Origin: Methanobacteriota archaeon
Lineage (GTDB): Archaea; Thermoplasmatota; Poseidoniia; Poseidoniales; Thalassarchaeaceae
Length of the DNA stretch: 64,000 nucleotides
Assembly (NCBI GenBank): GCA_018650285.1
Contig: JABIGF010000017.1
Coordinates: 1 to 64,000, forward strand
Direction of reading: 5' to 3'
The notes under the pieces were generated by a model. That model was not told where the DNA came from. It made no database searches and worked only from the letters and a program-made list of their open reading frames with translations. A program made the position numbers and the translations under genes. Below are positions 58,036-63,359 of this stretch, piece by piece (positions within the stretch are counted from its first letter, which is position 1; the number at the start of each line of letters is the position of its first letter).

Positions 58036-59535
58036 ATGGGCGAAGCATACGACGCACTTATGGGGCGCATGCGAGAGTTAGATGTGATGGGACAAATTAG
58101 CGGGCTGCTAGGTTGGGACCAAGAAGTAATGATGCCTCCCAAAGCAGCAGCAATGCGTGCTGAACAATTAGCATGGCTGTCTAAAGAAGGGCACACGAGA
58201 ATGACAGACCCAAAAGTAGGGGAATTGCTTACAACAGCCGAAGCCGAAGTTGGTGATGATGAAGTTGAACAAGGAAACTTACGCATAATTCGCGACTCAT
58301 ACGACAAGGCCACAAAGAAGCCAGTAGAGTTTGTTGAAGAAAAGGCGCGCCATACTTCTAAGAGCATAGTGTCATGGACAGAAGCGCGTGAGAAAAACGA
58401 CTTCTCAATCTTCCGAGATGACTTGGCAAAAATGATTGACATGTCCCGCGAGTTGGCTGGATATCTTGGCTATGATGACAACCCTTATGACGCTCTTCTC
58501 GACCTATACGAATCAGGATTATGTGTTGCCAAATTAGACCCGCTATTTGCCGGTTTGAGAGAATCCTCAGTTCCGCTAATCAAGGCGGTATCAGAACTTG
58601 AAGTCAAACCAGATTGTAGTTGGGTACACAAACACCCTTGGCCAAAAGCAAGCCAGGAAGCATTGAGCCAAGCTCTATCTGAAGCAATTGGTTTTGATTT
58701 TCAAGCAGGAAGGCGTGACGAATCAACACATCCATTCTGCGGCGGTTCAAATCCTGACGATGTTCGTTGGACAACTCGTTATGATGAGAAAGAACCGTAT
58801 GGTGCTATTTTTGGGACCATGCACGAAACAGGTCATGCATTGTATGAACAAGGCCGGCCACGAAACTTAGATTTCCAGCCAGCAGGCGAAGCAAATGGGC
58901 TCGGTGTCCACGAAAGTCAAAGCCGGTTATGGGAGAATCAAATAGGGCGCTCTTTAGAGTTCTGCGAATGGTCATTCCCAATGTGGCAAGAACACTTCCC
59001 TGCTAATTTTGAAGGAGTCACACCTGAAATGTTGTGGCAGGCAGTCAACCAGGTTGAAGCCAGTTTAATTCGTGTTGAGGCTGATGAAGCCACATACAAT
59101 CTTCACATTATGATTCGATATGAGGTAGAGAAGAAACTCATCAATGGTGAGTTGGAAGTCGATGACCTACCTGATGCATGGGATGATATGTACGAGGAGT
59201 TTCTTGGTGTGCGCTCTCCAACACGTACTGAAGGTGTCCTCCAAGATATTCATTGGTCGTTTGGCGCATTTGGGTATTTCCCAACCTATACTCTAGGAAA
59301 CCTCTACTCTGCTCAACTCTTAGTTGCTGCTAGAAAAGAGATCACAAATTTGGATGAGCAAATTCGTAATGGTGAGTTTAGTCCACTTCTAGAGTGGATG
59401 CGTACGCACGTGCACGCGAGAGCATCTATCATTGAGCCCGCAGATTTGATTGAAGAGGCAACAGGTGAGCAACCAAAGCCTGATGCATTTGTCACTTACC
59501 TCGCTGATAAGATTGGCACCCTCTATGGTCTTTGA
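58036..59535 (+). CDS. Carboxypeptidase Taq (M32 metallopeptidase)
   Basis: About 499 residues of the M32 family, which removes C-terminal residues from peptides in the cytoplasm. The zinc motif HETGH (MHETGHALYEQG, near residue 263) and the downstream GVHESQSRLWEN with the third ligand Glu, GQISGLLGWDQEVMMPP near the N-terminus and FGAFGYFPTYTLGNLYSAQL near the C-terminus are all diagnostic. Length is typical. ATG 58036 (MGEAYDALM) is preferred; an in-frame ATG at 58015 would add seven residues. Its stop overlaps the next start. Confidence 0.93.
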   Translation: MGEAYDALMGRMRELDVMGQISGLLGWDQEVMMPPKAAAMRAEQLAWLSKEGHTRMTDPKVGELLTTAEAEVGDDEVEQGNLRIIRDSYDKATKKPVEFVEEKARHTSKSIVSWTEAREKNDFSIFRDDLAKMIDMSRELAGYLGYDDNPYDALLDLYESGLCVAKLDPLFAGLRESSVPLIKAVSELEVKPDCSWVHKHPWPKASQEALSQALSEAIGFDFQAGRRDESTHPFCGGSNPDDVRWTTRYDEKEPYGAIFGTMHETGHALYEQGRPRNLDFQPAGEANGLGVHESQSRLWENQIGRSLEFCEWSFPMWQEHFPANFEGVTPEMLWQAVNQVEASLIRVEADEATYNLHIMIRYEVEKKLINGELEVDDLPDAWDDMYEEFLGVRSPTRTEGVLQDIHWSFGAFGYFPTYTLGNLYSAQLLVAARKEITNLDEQIRNGEFSPLLEWMRTHVHARASIIEPADLIEEATGEQPKPDAFVTYLADKIGTLYGL

Positions 59536-60737
59536 GTGAAGTGTGGGATGCGAAGACCCAAAGGGTTGGACACTCACCAACAGTCGTGGCTGACATCTCT
59601 GAGTTTGCTTGGTTTGTGCGCGACATGCCTGCAGCAGCTACCGCTGTGCTGTTAGGCCAAACCCGCCTATATGCTGGTGACTGGGATGGCAATCTTCGTG
59701 CCTGGAGTGAAGAGGGCAAGCAACTTTGGATTGCTGAAGCAGAAGACCGTGTGGAAAGAATGTGTGGCGCAAGAGATGCTGAATCGCCATTCATCTGCGC
59801 AACCGCTGGTAGCCAAATCAGTTCTTTAGATGCTGCAAGTGGCGAAATGCGTTGGATTCGTCAACTAGTTGGCTCATCTGATTTAGTAGTCTGCTCTGAT
59901 GATGGAAGCCGAGTATTGGCAACATCATCAGTCTATGAAATTGAATTAAATGATTTTATTGAAACAACATGCTGGCGTTTTGATGCTGACGGAGAAAGTG
60001 TCCGCGAAGACACTTTCGAAGAAAGGCCATGGCATCTTCTTCTTGATGAGAAAGGTGTGGCGACAATGGGTATTGGTAGGCCAAGATGTGGTTTAATCAC
60101 TCAGAATGATAATGAAAGTAATCACATTAATTTAGCCGAAGACAACCCAATTTTATGCGGTTCAACAATTGGTGATAAGACAATTTTCGGCCACGCATCT
60201 GGGTTAGTTACCATGCTCAAAGAAAATAGTGATGGGTTGATAGAACTTGATTCTGGTCACGGCGACAGTGTTCACACATTGCATTTTGATGGCACCTCCA
60301 TTATTGCTGGTGGCGACGATGGTGAAGTCCGTTCAATTTCCACAAAGGGGGATGTGAAATGGTCTGAGAATCTCGGTTCCGCTTTGGATGAATGTACTAT
60401 CGGTTTCGAAATAGGTGGCGAAAAAAGTTGCTGGGTTGGCACCTGGGATGGGTTGAATGCCACACTATGGGTGCTATCAGGAAATGATGGTAAAACACTT
60501 CTCCAATTCACAAATTTATCTCGGATTCGAGCATTAGCTAGCCGCGAAGATCGTGTAGTAATTGGATTGGATGATGGAAGGGTATTATTGTTCAATCAAG
60601 AATTATTTTGCAGGCGATTAAATGACAATAATAATGTTGAGAATAATAGCGACAATAATGACGATGAGGCTGATGACAGCGTCGAGGGGGCCGGTCGCCT
60701 TTCATTGCAAGAGAGATTGCGTGCTTTGAGAAAGTAA
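59532..60737 (+). CDS. WD40/PQQ-like beta-propeller protein
   Basis: 401 residues with several propeller blades: LYAGDWDGNLRAWSEEGKQLW, SSLDAASGEMRWIRQL, IIAGGDDGEVRSISTKGDVKW and VVIGLDDGRVLLFNQ. It has no signal peptide and ends with an Asn/Asp-rich, then helical, tail. It starts at TTG 59532, overlapping the stop of the M32 gene (TTGA), so the two are coupled. Probably an interaction scaffold; partners unknown. Confidence 0.75.
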   Translation: MSEVWDAKTQRVGHSPTVVADISEFAWFVRDMPAAATAVLLGQTRLYAGDWDGNLRAWSEEGKQLWIAEAEDRVERMCGARDAESPFICATAGSQISSLDAASGEMRWIRQLVGSSDLVVCSDDGSRVLATSSVYEIELNDFIETTCWRFDADGESVREDTFEERPWHLLLDEKGVATMGIGRPRCGLITQNDNESNHINLAEDNPILCGSTIGDKTIFGHASGLVTMLKENSDGLIELDSGHGDSVHTLHFDGTSIIAGGDDGEVRSISTKGDVKWSENLGSALDECTIGFEIGGEKSCWVGTWDGLNATLWVLSGNDGKTLLQFTNLSRIRALASREDRVVIGLDDGRVLLFNQELFCRRLNDNNNVENNSDNNDDEADDSVEGAGRLSLQERLRALRK

Positions 60738-60812: not shown

Positions 60813-60880
60813 CCATAGGAAATACTCCACTGGAAAATAAGGTTATTAGTGTTATTTTCTTGTAGAAAAGTGGTTGTATT

Positions 60881-60897
60881 ACCGAAAGATTTAATTG
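60881..60897 (+). promoter_or_regulatory. BRE/TATA promoter of the structured RNA
   Basis: ACCGAAAGATTTAATT is a good match to an archaeal BRE (purine-rich, CGAAA) plus TATA box. Transcription would start about 25 bases downstream, near 60912-60918, just before the first strong hairpin and far from any start codon, which supports a non-coding transcript. Confidence 0.6.
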
Positions 60898-60911
60898 CCT
60901 CCCCCCGCCTT

Positions 60912-61680
60912 GACTAAGTTGCTGCTCCTGAGGAGCGGCGGGGCTGGTTTCGACCGGACCCCGTGCCCGTCTGCCGGCGTGGGCCCCTCGGGGGTAGAAG
61001 TCGGCCGCCAAAACGAGTAATCGTGGAGGCGATGACTGGAAAGAAATCTGCTTCGGCAGAGGACTGGAAAGTCTTGCAGGAAGCGATGATCACTTCGGTG
61101 TGATTCCACCAGATAGACGGGGAGATGACCTTCGGGAAATCCACCCCATAAAATTTGGTTTATGACCGGGAAAACGAATGAGCTTGCTCGCTAGTGGAAC
61201 TAGTCAACGCTCTGGACAGGAAATCGAGTGGACACACGATGACCGGAATCGGAAGTGGAAGATGGAAGCTGTTGGAAAACAACTGAGATCAACTGTGGGA
61301 AATGGAGGAAGTCGAAAGACAACCAAAGTTAACTGCGGATGGTTGAGGATGTTGAAAGATGGCCAATGTTTACTACTGAAGAAGAAGGAAGTTAGTCCAA
61401 TGCTTGAGGAACTGGACAGGGTGGAGACGATACGGACCTTGAAAGAGGAAAGTATAGTCACCTGTGCCTAGGGAATCGGTAGGTTAGGATAACTCCTACT
61501 TGCTGTGAAACTGGGATGCGATGAGACAGAATCGAAAGAGGAAGTTGAGTCGTGTGGTGGAAGGAAGGCCTCGTGTCAACCGGAAGCCACAACCAGCGGA
61601 GGCTGGTGAGTGGGAGGAATTCCTCCTCCGGAACGAGACCCACTCACCAGTTCTCCCAACCCCCGTCTTTATTCAACGAG
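60912..61680 (+). ncRNA. Large structured non-coding RNA, family not recognised
   Basis: About 770 bases rich in hairpins: 60921-60928/60932-60939 (8 bp, loop TGA); 60939-60948/60953-60963 (10 bp, one bulge, loop TTCG); 60965-60968/60981-60984; 61047-61051/61056-61060 (loop TTCG); 61091-61093/61098-61100 (loop TTCG); 61119-61148, interrupted by internal loops and closed by a TTCG loop; 61191-61194/61200-61203; 61271-61274/61280-61283; 61311-61313/61318-61320 (GAAA loop); and a perfect 12-bp stem 61603-61614/61639-61650. Three loops are C(UUCG)G only when read on the plus strand. It has its own promoter. I do not see the conserved cores of RNase P RNA, SRP RNA or tmRNA. Open frames inside look like chance. 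Confidence 0.6.
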
Positions 61681-61754
61681 ATAATTTCTCGTCGATGTCT
61701 TTCCTATTCTAACTGTTACGCAAGAGTTGAGGTGCCGCGTGGTGATTTGACAAC

Positions 61755-63359
61755 CTATTCTTTCGGGCCGACCATCTCTTCAGGCTTCACCCAATCATCG
61801 AACTGCTCGTTAGTCAAAATCTCTAATTCTAGAGCAGATTCTCGCAAAGTGATCCCTTTCTTATGGGCATTTTTTGCAATTGCAGCAGCAGCATCGTATC
61901 CAATGTGGCGATTCAAAGCTGTTACTAGCATCAATGAGTTTTCCAAATGTGCTGAAATAGCATCATTGTTTGCTTTCAATCCAATAACACAGTGGTCTGT
62001 AAAGGAGTTACAAGAGTCTGAGAGTAATCTAATGCTGTGCAATAGATTGTGAATCATCATTGGTTTGTAGACGTTCAATTCAAAATTTCCTTGGCTACCA
62101 CCGACAGTGATGGCAGTATGGTTACCAAAGACTTGGCAGCATACCATAGTAAGCGCCTCGGCTTGAGTAGGATTCACCTTTCCAGGCATGATACTTGAGC
62201 CAGGCTCATTTGCTGGCAAAGCCAACTCGCCAATTCCACAGCGTGGCCCAGAGCCAAGCCAACGGATATCATTGCCGATTTTCATTAGTGATGCTGCTAA
62301 AGTATTGAGCGCGCCTGATGCAGCAACGACGGCATCATGTGCTGCTAACTGAGCAAATTTGTTTGGAGCAGAAATGAATCCTAGACCAGTCTTGCTTGCA
62401 ATTTTCACGGCTACTTTAGTAGCAAATTGTGGATGTGTGTTTAATCCAGTGCCAACAGCAGTCCCTCCAAGAGCTAGTTCTAGCAGGTCATCAAGAGCAT
62501 GTCCAATTCTTTTCACATCTGAATCAAGCATGGAAACATAGCCTGAAAATTCTTGCCCTAGTGTCAAGGGTACAGCATCCATTAAGTGAGTCCGGCCAAT
62601 TTTGACGATATCAGAAAACTCAGTTACTTTGGCAGCCAAAGCATTTCTTAAATGCAAGACTGCAGGTATTAGTCTGTGATGAATTTCTTCGGCCGCAGCG
62701 ATATGCATTGCCGTTGGAAAGGTATCATTACTAGATTGGGCACGATTCACATGGTCATTTGGATGTACAGGCGTTTTGCTTCCTAATACGCCTCCACTAA
62801 TTTCTATTGCTCGATTAGCAATCACTTCATTTGTATTCATGTTAGTTTGAGTGCCGGAACCTGTTTGCCATATTTTGAGAGGGAAATGATTGTCAAGTTG
62901 CCCAGAAATAACTTCTTCACAAGCATCTGAAATTAGTTGGCATGTTTTTTCATCAAGTTCATCTAATTCTAGATTTGTTTGAGCAGCGCATTGTTTGAGG
63001 ATTCCAAAGGCGCGGATTAATGCACGTGGCATGATATCATCGCCAATATCAAAATTCATCAGTGAACGAGCAGTTTGAGCGCCAAAATATTTCTCAGCAG
63101 GAACTTCTAGTTCACCCATGGTGTCACTTTCAATTCTGACAGCATCGCCATCACCACCGATATTTGCAGCGCGTGGAGCGACATTAGTTGCAGTCGGTGG
63201 CCTAGATTCTTGCTCTAGCCCAGAAGAGATGAGAGTGGCGATTGCTGCTGAGCGGCCACCCTTGCGTCCTTTGCCTGTTTTACGATCTAGGCGCTTGGCT
63301 AATTCTTCTGGAATACTAATGCTGATGATTCGTCTGTCGCCCGCTCTATGCTTTGCCAT
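61755..63359 (-). CDS. fumC: Fumarate hydratase class II with N-terminal ribbon-helix-helix domain
   Basis: 534 residues. From about residue 74 it is a complete class II fumarase, interconverting fumarate and malate in the citric acid cycle: [56 protein letters not shown] and the signature [17 protein letters not shown]. Residues about 8-52 form a ribbon-helix-helix DNA-binding motif ([19 protein letters not shown] ... [18 protein letters not shown]), joined by a Pro/Ala linker without any stop. Normal FumC lacks this domain. An AT-rich TATA-like tract (about 63382-63397) ends some 25 bases before ATG 63359, which supports this full-length start. Confidence 0.9.

Follow-up and report, generated by a model that had tools for sequence, protein, structure and literature searches.

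A large structured RNA gene with an upstream ORB-like element at one chromosomal site in Ca. Poseidoniales

Marine Group II archaea rank high in abundance among surface-ocean archaea, yet nearly all knowledge of them comes from metagenomes. In an assembly of this group classified in the family Thalassarchaeaceae, we analyzed the first 64,000 nucleotides of contig JABIGF010000017.1 (hereafter, the window), where a gene for a beta-propeller protein and the gene fumC flank some 770 bases without a credible gene. What does this stretch encode, and what could its product do? A previous sequence-only reading had suggested a new large archaeal non-coding RNA, and this suggestion is supported by the lack of a match in Rfam, by conservation in 14 genera and by covariation. 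The locus is a gene for a lineage-specific, highly structured non-coding RNA. It has an archaeal BRE/TATA promoter of its own and is found at one chromosomal site in Ca. Poseidoniales; its transcription is inferred. That positions 60917-61666 represent a real structured RNA gene we hold to be almost certain, in the absence of transcript data.

The promoter read earlier from the letters alone is indeed present (ACCGAAAGATTTAATTG at 60881-60897). The TATA box is centered at about 60893, and the transcript is predicted to start near 60917, some 25 nt downstream, because this is the usual archaeal spacing from a TATA box. The spacing between the TATA box and the first hairpin, at the predicted 5' end, is constant in 46 distinct loci. 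On the other side, the conserved 3' element ends near 61666 with the invariant CUCCCA followed by a short pyrimidine-rich tail. The extent of the gene was thus defined by the conserved promoter spacing at the 5' side and by the end of the conserved 3' element. The span of 60881-61690 proposed in the sequence-only reading stands as an RNA gene, with its start refined to near 60917 instead of 60881. With the same borders applied throughout, the gene has about 750 bases in the window and 529-1277 nt in its homologues. An own promoter at a conserved distance, together with the absence of a conserved reading frame, served as a criterion for the gene, and the locus satisfies it. The coordinates of all features are collected in Table 1.

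Table 1. Features of the RNA locus and its neighbors (window coordinates)
Feature	Positions	Strand	Basis or remark
Beta-propeller protein gene (PQQ/WD-like)	59532-60737	+	Conserved upstream neighbor
ORB-like element TCCACTGGAAAATAAGGTT	60826-60844	+	14 of 16 points for the archaeal ORB motif; homologues keep the distance to the RNA
Second palindrome TTTTCTTGTAGAAAA	60855-60869	.	Degenerate here; reverse-strand score 10
BRE/TATA promoter ACCGAAAGATTTAATTG	60881-60897	+	Constant distance to the 5' hairpin in 46 distinct loci
Large structured non-coding RNA, predicted extent (ends +/- about 5 nt)	60917-61666	+	Borders and covariation
5' terminal hairpin GCTGCTCC-TGA-GGAGCGGC	60921-60939	+	Pairing and compensatory changes, 28 sequences
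Conserved 5' domain	60940-61036	+	GGGG..CCCC hairpin, GCCCGTCTGCCGGCGTGGG, CCCCTCGGGGG, GUC..GCC / GGCGAUGAC helix
Variable middle	61037-61593	+	UUCG/GNRA-capped hairpins, long rod-like helix with purine internal loops
3' domain	61594-61666	+	CAGCGGAG-G-[12-bp stem]-UU-CUCCCA, then ACCCCCGU
fumC (class II fumarase)	61755-63359	-	Convergent, conserved downstream neighbor

Folding of the plus strand was better than that of dinucleotide-shuffled sequences (z -4.6, with none of 20 shuffles as good), while the minus strand gave a weaker signal (z -2.2). The structural details claimed for this stretch were recovered, including C(UUCG)G in three places (61051, 61093 and 61130, with an extra UUCG at 60949), 14 GAAA and a perfect 12-bp stem (61603-61614 with 61639-61650), whose pairing is kept by compensatory changes in the homologues. 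In the 5' terminal hairpin, 99.6% of cells in the alignment are paired and two pairs show a compensatory change; the conserved G-U pairs of this hairpin identify the plus strand as functional. Within the adjacent 5' domain, GCCCGTCTGCCGGCGTGGG is near-invariant. In the 3' domain, the GCGGAG and CUCCCA segments are invariant in 26 sequences from both families of the order in which the RNA occurs, and the stem is 98-100% paired (98% of cells among 10 distinct sequences, where seven pairs are compensatory).

The full-length fold was assessed in an alignment of 15 homologues from one genus of the sister family (g15), which has 193 pairs with 96.2% of cells paired. Double-sided changes occur in 80 of the 193 pairs, compared to a mean of 38.7 in shuffles of the same alignment, none of which reached the observed value in 500 trials; sliding the partners by 1-3 columns reduced pairing to 36-43%. 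Because the structure was derived from this very alignment, more weight attaches to the shuffles and to the counts for single helices than to the percentage of paired cells. Compensatory changes were also found in 54 of 171 pairs within the genus of the window. Altogether, covariation above shuffled and shifted controls, our criterion for a structured RNA, is seen in three alignments. The comparison of homologous propeller-fumC intergenic regions proposed in the sequence-only reading has thus revealed both conservation at the junction and strong covariation.

The two ends of the RNA are conserved, and its middle evolves fast. In three relatives in the genus, both halves of the middle region are shorter by a 40-nt stretch, in positions that fit a joint loss of the arms of a single long helix. 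In genus g3 (loci L050-L057 and L063-L065), a 3' module of about 330 nt is duplicated in tandem, its pieces being 92-97% identical, and the resulting RNAs are about 1.25 kb long with two 3' stems. Within the RNA of one genus g9 genome (L088:464-1037), a purine-rich module of 63 nt (GAACYGGACGCAAGGAAGGGG...) occurs six times, and related copies are also present in other genera. From these duplications and the paired loss, we deduce an architecture of conserved ends and an expandable middle. A repeated CGATGA-N-GGAA motif was considered and rejected, as its frequency over the entire window does not exceed chance, and no repeated protein-binding motif such as a canonical kink-turn could be demonstrated in the RNA.

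The taxonomic distribution of the RNA was established by several searches. DNA similarity detected homologues in 13 of the 59 genomes searched, the window's own included, and already reached another family. With R1, a covariance model built on the 3' domain, matches were obtained in 46 of the order's 292 genomes, which belong to 7 genera, and a sample of 243 genomes from the phylum gave none beyond the order. The junctions of the remaining genera were read directly, which recovered the genera of Thalassarchaeaceae missed by R1, and the RNA was found at the propeller-fumC junction in all 11 sampled genera of this family. In the sister family Poseidoniaceae, it occupies the same junction in three genera (g15, g17 and g22), giving 14 genera in total, with promoter, 5' hairpin and 3' stem conserved among them. 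At the junctions read in three other Poseidoniaceae genera (g12, g13 and g16), there is either another gene or no gap at all, and the RNA is missing. A second model, built on the promoter and the 5' hairpin (R2), gave no match at any position in the genomes sampled from g12, g13, g14, g16 and g18, while it recovers the copy at the junction in the remaining genera to which it was applied. A relocated RNA in the genera without a junction copy was rejected on this ground, and likewise for stray ORB matches in g13.

Since one site is common to two families, its occurrence suggests that the RNA was present in their common ancestor and was subsequently lost, or diverged beyond recognition, in some Poseidoniaceae. 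The RNA is not universally essential, as five genera of this family have no detectable copy. Apparent matches in one member of Bacteroidales and in a Gammaproteobacterium were discarded; they are weak (23.9 and 15.4 bits, respectively) and lack the 5' domain. A single-cell contig labeled 'Deltaproteobacteria bacterium AH-558-G13' (JAOMAZ010000026.1, our L150) contains both RNA domains; it is probably mislabeled or contaminated, because it also carries a Poseidoniales propeller gene.

Upstream of the promoter lie elements resembling the origin recognition box (ORB), the site of the replication initiator Orc1/Cdc6. Most loci have TCCAGTGGAAAnnGGGGT-like elements upstream of the TATA box, frequently accompanied by an inverted second one. 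Of the two elements, just one is good in the genome of the window; at the position of the second palindrome, many homologues have a better, inverted ORB-like element (ACCCCTnTTTCCAGTG). We scored the elements on a scale of 16 points, using 3317 random windows from the same contigs as a control. A best score of at least 14 was obtained for 76% of the 46 loci versus 0.18% of the random windows, and a score of at least 15 for 43% of the loci versus none of the 3317 windows. Because the 46 loci are related, they cannot be counted as 46 independent cases; what matters is that the element was kept while its flanks diverged.

Two versions of the archaeal ORB consensus have been published, CTTCCAGTGGAAACGAAAGGGGT (quoted in PMC4153887) and TCCA[CG]T[TG]GAAA[TC][GA]AAGGGGT (PMC4164010). 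The elements at the RNA loci resemble them in the TCCA[CG]T[TG]GAAA core, the GGGGT run and the often inverted pairing, and so satisfy membership by dyad core (TCCASTKGAAA) and GGGGT run. They differ in the spacer between core and G-run, which is 2-3 nt long at 33 of the 36 scored RNA loci and 4 nt long in 28 of 30 other ORB loci of Poseidoniales. The criterion of an approximately 4-nt spacer is thus failed at the RNA loci, where the G-run lies 1-2 bases closer to the core than in the other ORBs of the order. A many-gene regulon based on the TTTCCRGTGGAAA palindrome was also considered and rejected, as there were 13 matches versus 13 for the control.

Our main reading of the function, to which we assign a probability of about 0.5, is that of a scaffold RNA of a ribonucleoprotein whose synthesis is governed by an initiator-like switch. 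This function is inferred without data on transcripts, protein partners or phenotypes. The RNA would act in trans as a stable scaffold, its conserved end domains anchoring and protecting it and binding fixed partners. The modular middle, lengthened in some genera by duplication of whole modules, could provide repeated binding surfaces. Transcription might be switched by Orc1/Cdc6, which has two genes in this genome, or by a related palindrome-binding factor, and the same switch could possibly operate at mcm, which likewise has an ORB upstream. Synthesis of the RNA would then keep pace with growth or replication. That Orc1/Cdc6 itself is the switch must be rated lower than the scaffold reading, and no binding data are available; because of the 2-3 nt spacer at the RNA loci, as opposed to 4 nt at the other ORBs of the order, the binding factor may not be Orc1/Cdc6. 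The ORB-like promoter element offers a concrete and testable link to replication control.

A dedicated protein scaffold may not be needed at all if the RNA forms a homo-oligomer on its own or is catalytic, in the manner of OLE, ROOL or GOLLD, an explanation we consider unlikely while ranking it ahead of the other rivals. Large structured RNAs of unresolved function have bacterial and phage precedents, and the closest resemblance of the new RNA is to these three families, which share with it a length of hundreds of nucleotides and an elaborate covarying fold. Such an assembly would account for the size and ornate fold of the RNA and for its module duplication, and the combination of one conserved end with a variable part is also known from GOLLD (PMC12286853). 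However, there is no sequence or structure match between the new RNA and any of the three. The search against Rfam 15 that the sequence-only reading had recommended returned no family at the gathering threshold, either in the window or in 16 homologous loci, and a scan of the window relaxed to E=10 gave only chance-level matches, among them sub-threshold C/D-box hits and none to OLE, ROOL or GOLLD. The RNA is therefore a new family relative to Rfam 15. It is also archaeal and chromosomal, lies at a fixed syntenic site behind an ORB-like promoter element and has no phage link that we could find, in contrast to ROOL and GOLLD, which are typical of phages and prophages; a strict 3' domain pattern had no match in the viral collection. 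Finally, no inter-subunit contact or catalytic core was identified. As a structured RNA of 0.5-1.3 kb that spans two families and is missing from Rfam, it would join the few large archaeal non-coding RNA families and provide a test case for the role of large ornate RNAs outside phages and bacteria.

Somewhat less probable still is that the RNA is made at, and acts in, a main or secondary origin of chromosomal replication, where the transcript or the DNA hairpins would help to open or regulate the origin. The ORB-like pair at a fixed distance upstream in most of the 46 loci fits this idea, as do the rarity of ORBs otherwise in the contigs scanned and the inverted ORB pairs known at archaeal origins (PMC4153887, PMC4164010). 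GC skew lends it no support: over seven stretches of contig, each 80-160 kb long, no consistent extremum falls at the locus, but the skew is weak throughout. Against it, the two cdc6 genes of the window's genome are on contigs C27 and C3, not on the contig of the RNA (C23), and neither has an ORB beside it. Junctions without the RNA have no ORB-like element; that is, the elements vanish together with the RNA.

Sites that look more like origins exist elsewhere in the order, where we obtained about a hundred ORB pattern matches versus a handful for a reversed control. Canonical ORBs with a 4-nt spacer are located in front of mcm and next to the gene of a beta-CASP nuclease (G000:C19:36965, locus L162, and G000:C17:81405, locus L256; in other genomes, loci L222, L233, L236 and L219). 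Several Poseidoniaceae genomes have an inverted ORB pair about 165 bp apart, which is likely a chromosomal origin. Because of the non-canonical spacer, the absence of the element at junctions without the RNA, the lack of a consistent skew extremum and the location of cdc6 on other contigs, we infer, without binding data, that the ORB-like element is not the main origin but belongs to the promoter of the RNA gene, where Orc1/Cdc6 or a relative would bind it, as in the scaffold reading.

The remaining explanations have very little left in their favor. An mRNA for a fast-evolving disordered protein, with RNA structure as a secondary feature, could be suspected from the purine-rich sense strand, which yields spurious K/E/R/G-rich ORFs, and from a Red Sea dRNA-Seq metatranscriptome in which 93% of Group II RNA-Seq reads were assigned to 13 'disordered protein mRNAs' (PMC5069720). 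We strongly disfavor it. As had been stated from the sequence alone, there is no credible gene here: no reading frame is conserved among four relatives at 84-86% identity, ORFs remain unconserved even at 84-85%, and the many indels, found throughout, are nearly all single bases and not in threes. The helices and their UUCG/GNRA loops, on the other hand, keep covarying.

The same report also describes an abundant, unidentified 229-nt non-coding RNA, Tan1, from Ca. Thalassoarchaea, for which a complex structure was proposed from six homologues with 75-79% identity (PMC5069720). Tan1 is like the new RNA in its archaeal group, unknown family and complex structure and unlike it in length, the new RNA having about 530-1280 nt. 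Tan1 could be a piece of the new RNA; without a sequence comparison, this identity is neither shown nor excluded. If it holds, a part of the RNA had already been seen, though not its length, gene, distribution or promoter. Likewise, the 13 'disordered protein' ORFs of that source may include the new RNA or spurious ORFs on it. We regard as improbable, on a par with the origin explanation, the full combination of these ideas, in which the Orc1/Cdc6-controlled RNA either serves as a cell-cycle-coupled ribonucleoprotein scaffold or is an RNA component in the control of origins, and also ranks with the most abundant Group II transcripts, until now mistaken for disordered-protein mRNAs or known only as the Tan1 fragment. 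Should the RNA prove abundant, the reading of Group II metatranscriptomes would be affected, since 'disordered protein' ORFs arise spuriously on its purine-rich strand.

That the locus is a divergent form of RNase P RNA, SRP RNA, tmRNA or a C/D or H/ACA precursor, suggested only by the general likeness of stable structured archaeal RNAs with genes and promoters of their own, is just as hard to sustain: it is neither RNase P nor SRP RNA, whose conserved cores the sequence-only reading could not find, because both have separate genes elsewhere in the assembly (C28:22632 with 223.5 bits and C20:142024 with 124.8 bits, respectively), while the locus contains the core of neither (8.6 bits against a cut-off of 84 for RF00373, and no match for RF01857) and no tRNA-like domain of tRNA or tmRNA detectable by ARAGORN, and its Rfam results are those given above.

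A minor observation concerns the downstream neighbor. The fumarase in the window has an N-terminal extension of about 70 aa with a weak match, at E 0.009 and below the cut-off, to RHH_1, a ribbon-helix-helix DNA-binding domain, and many Poseidoniaceae matches begin only past this extension.
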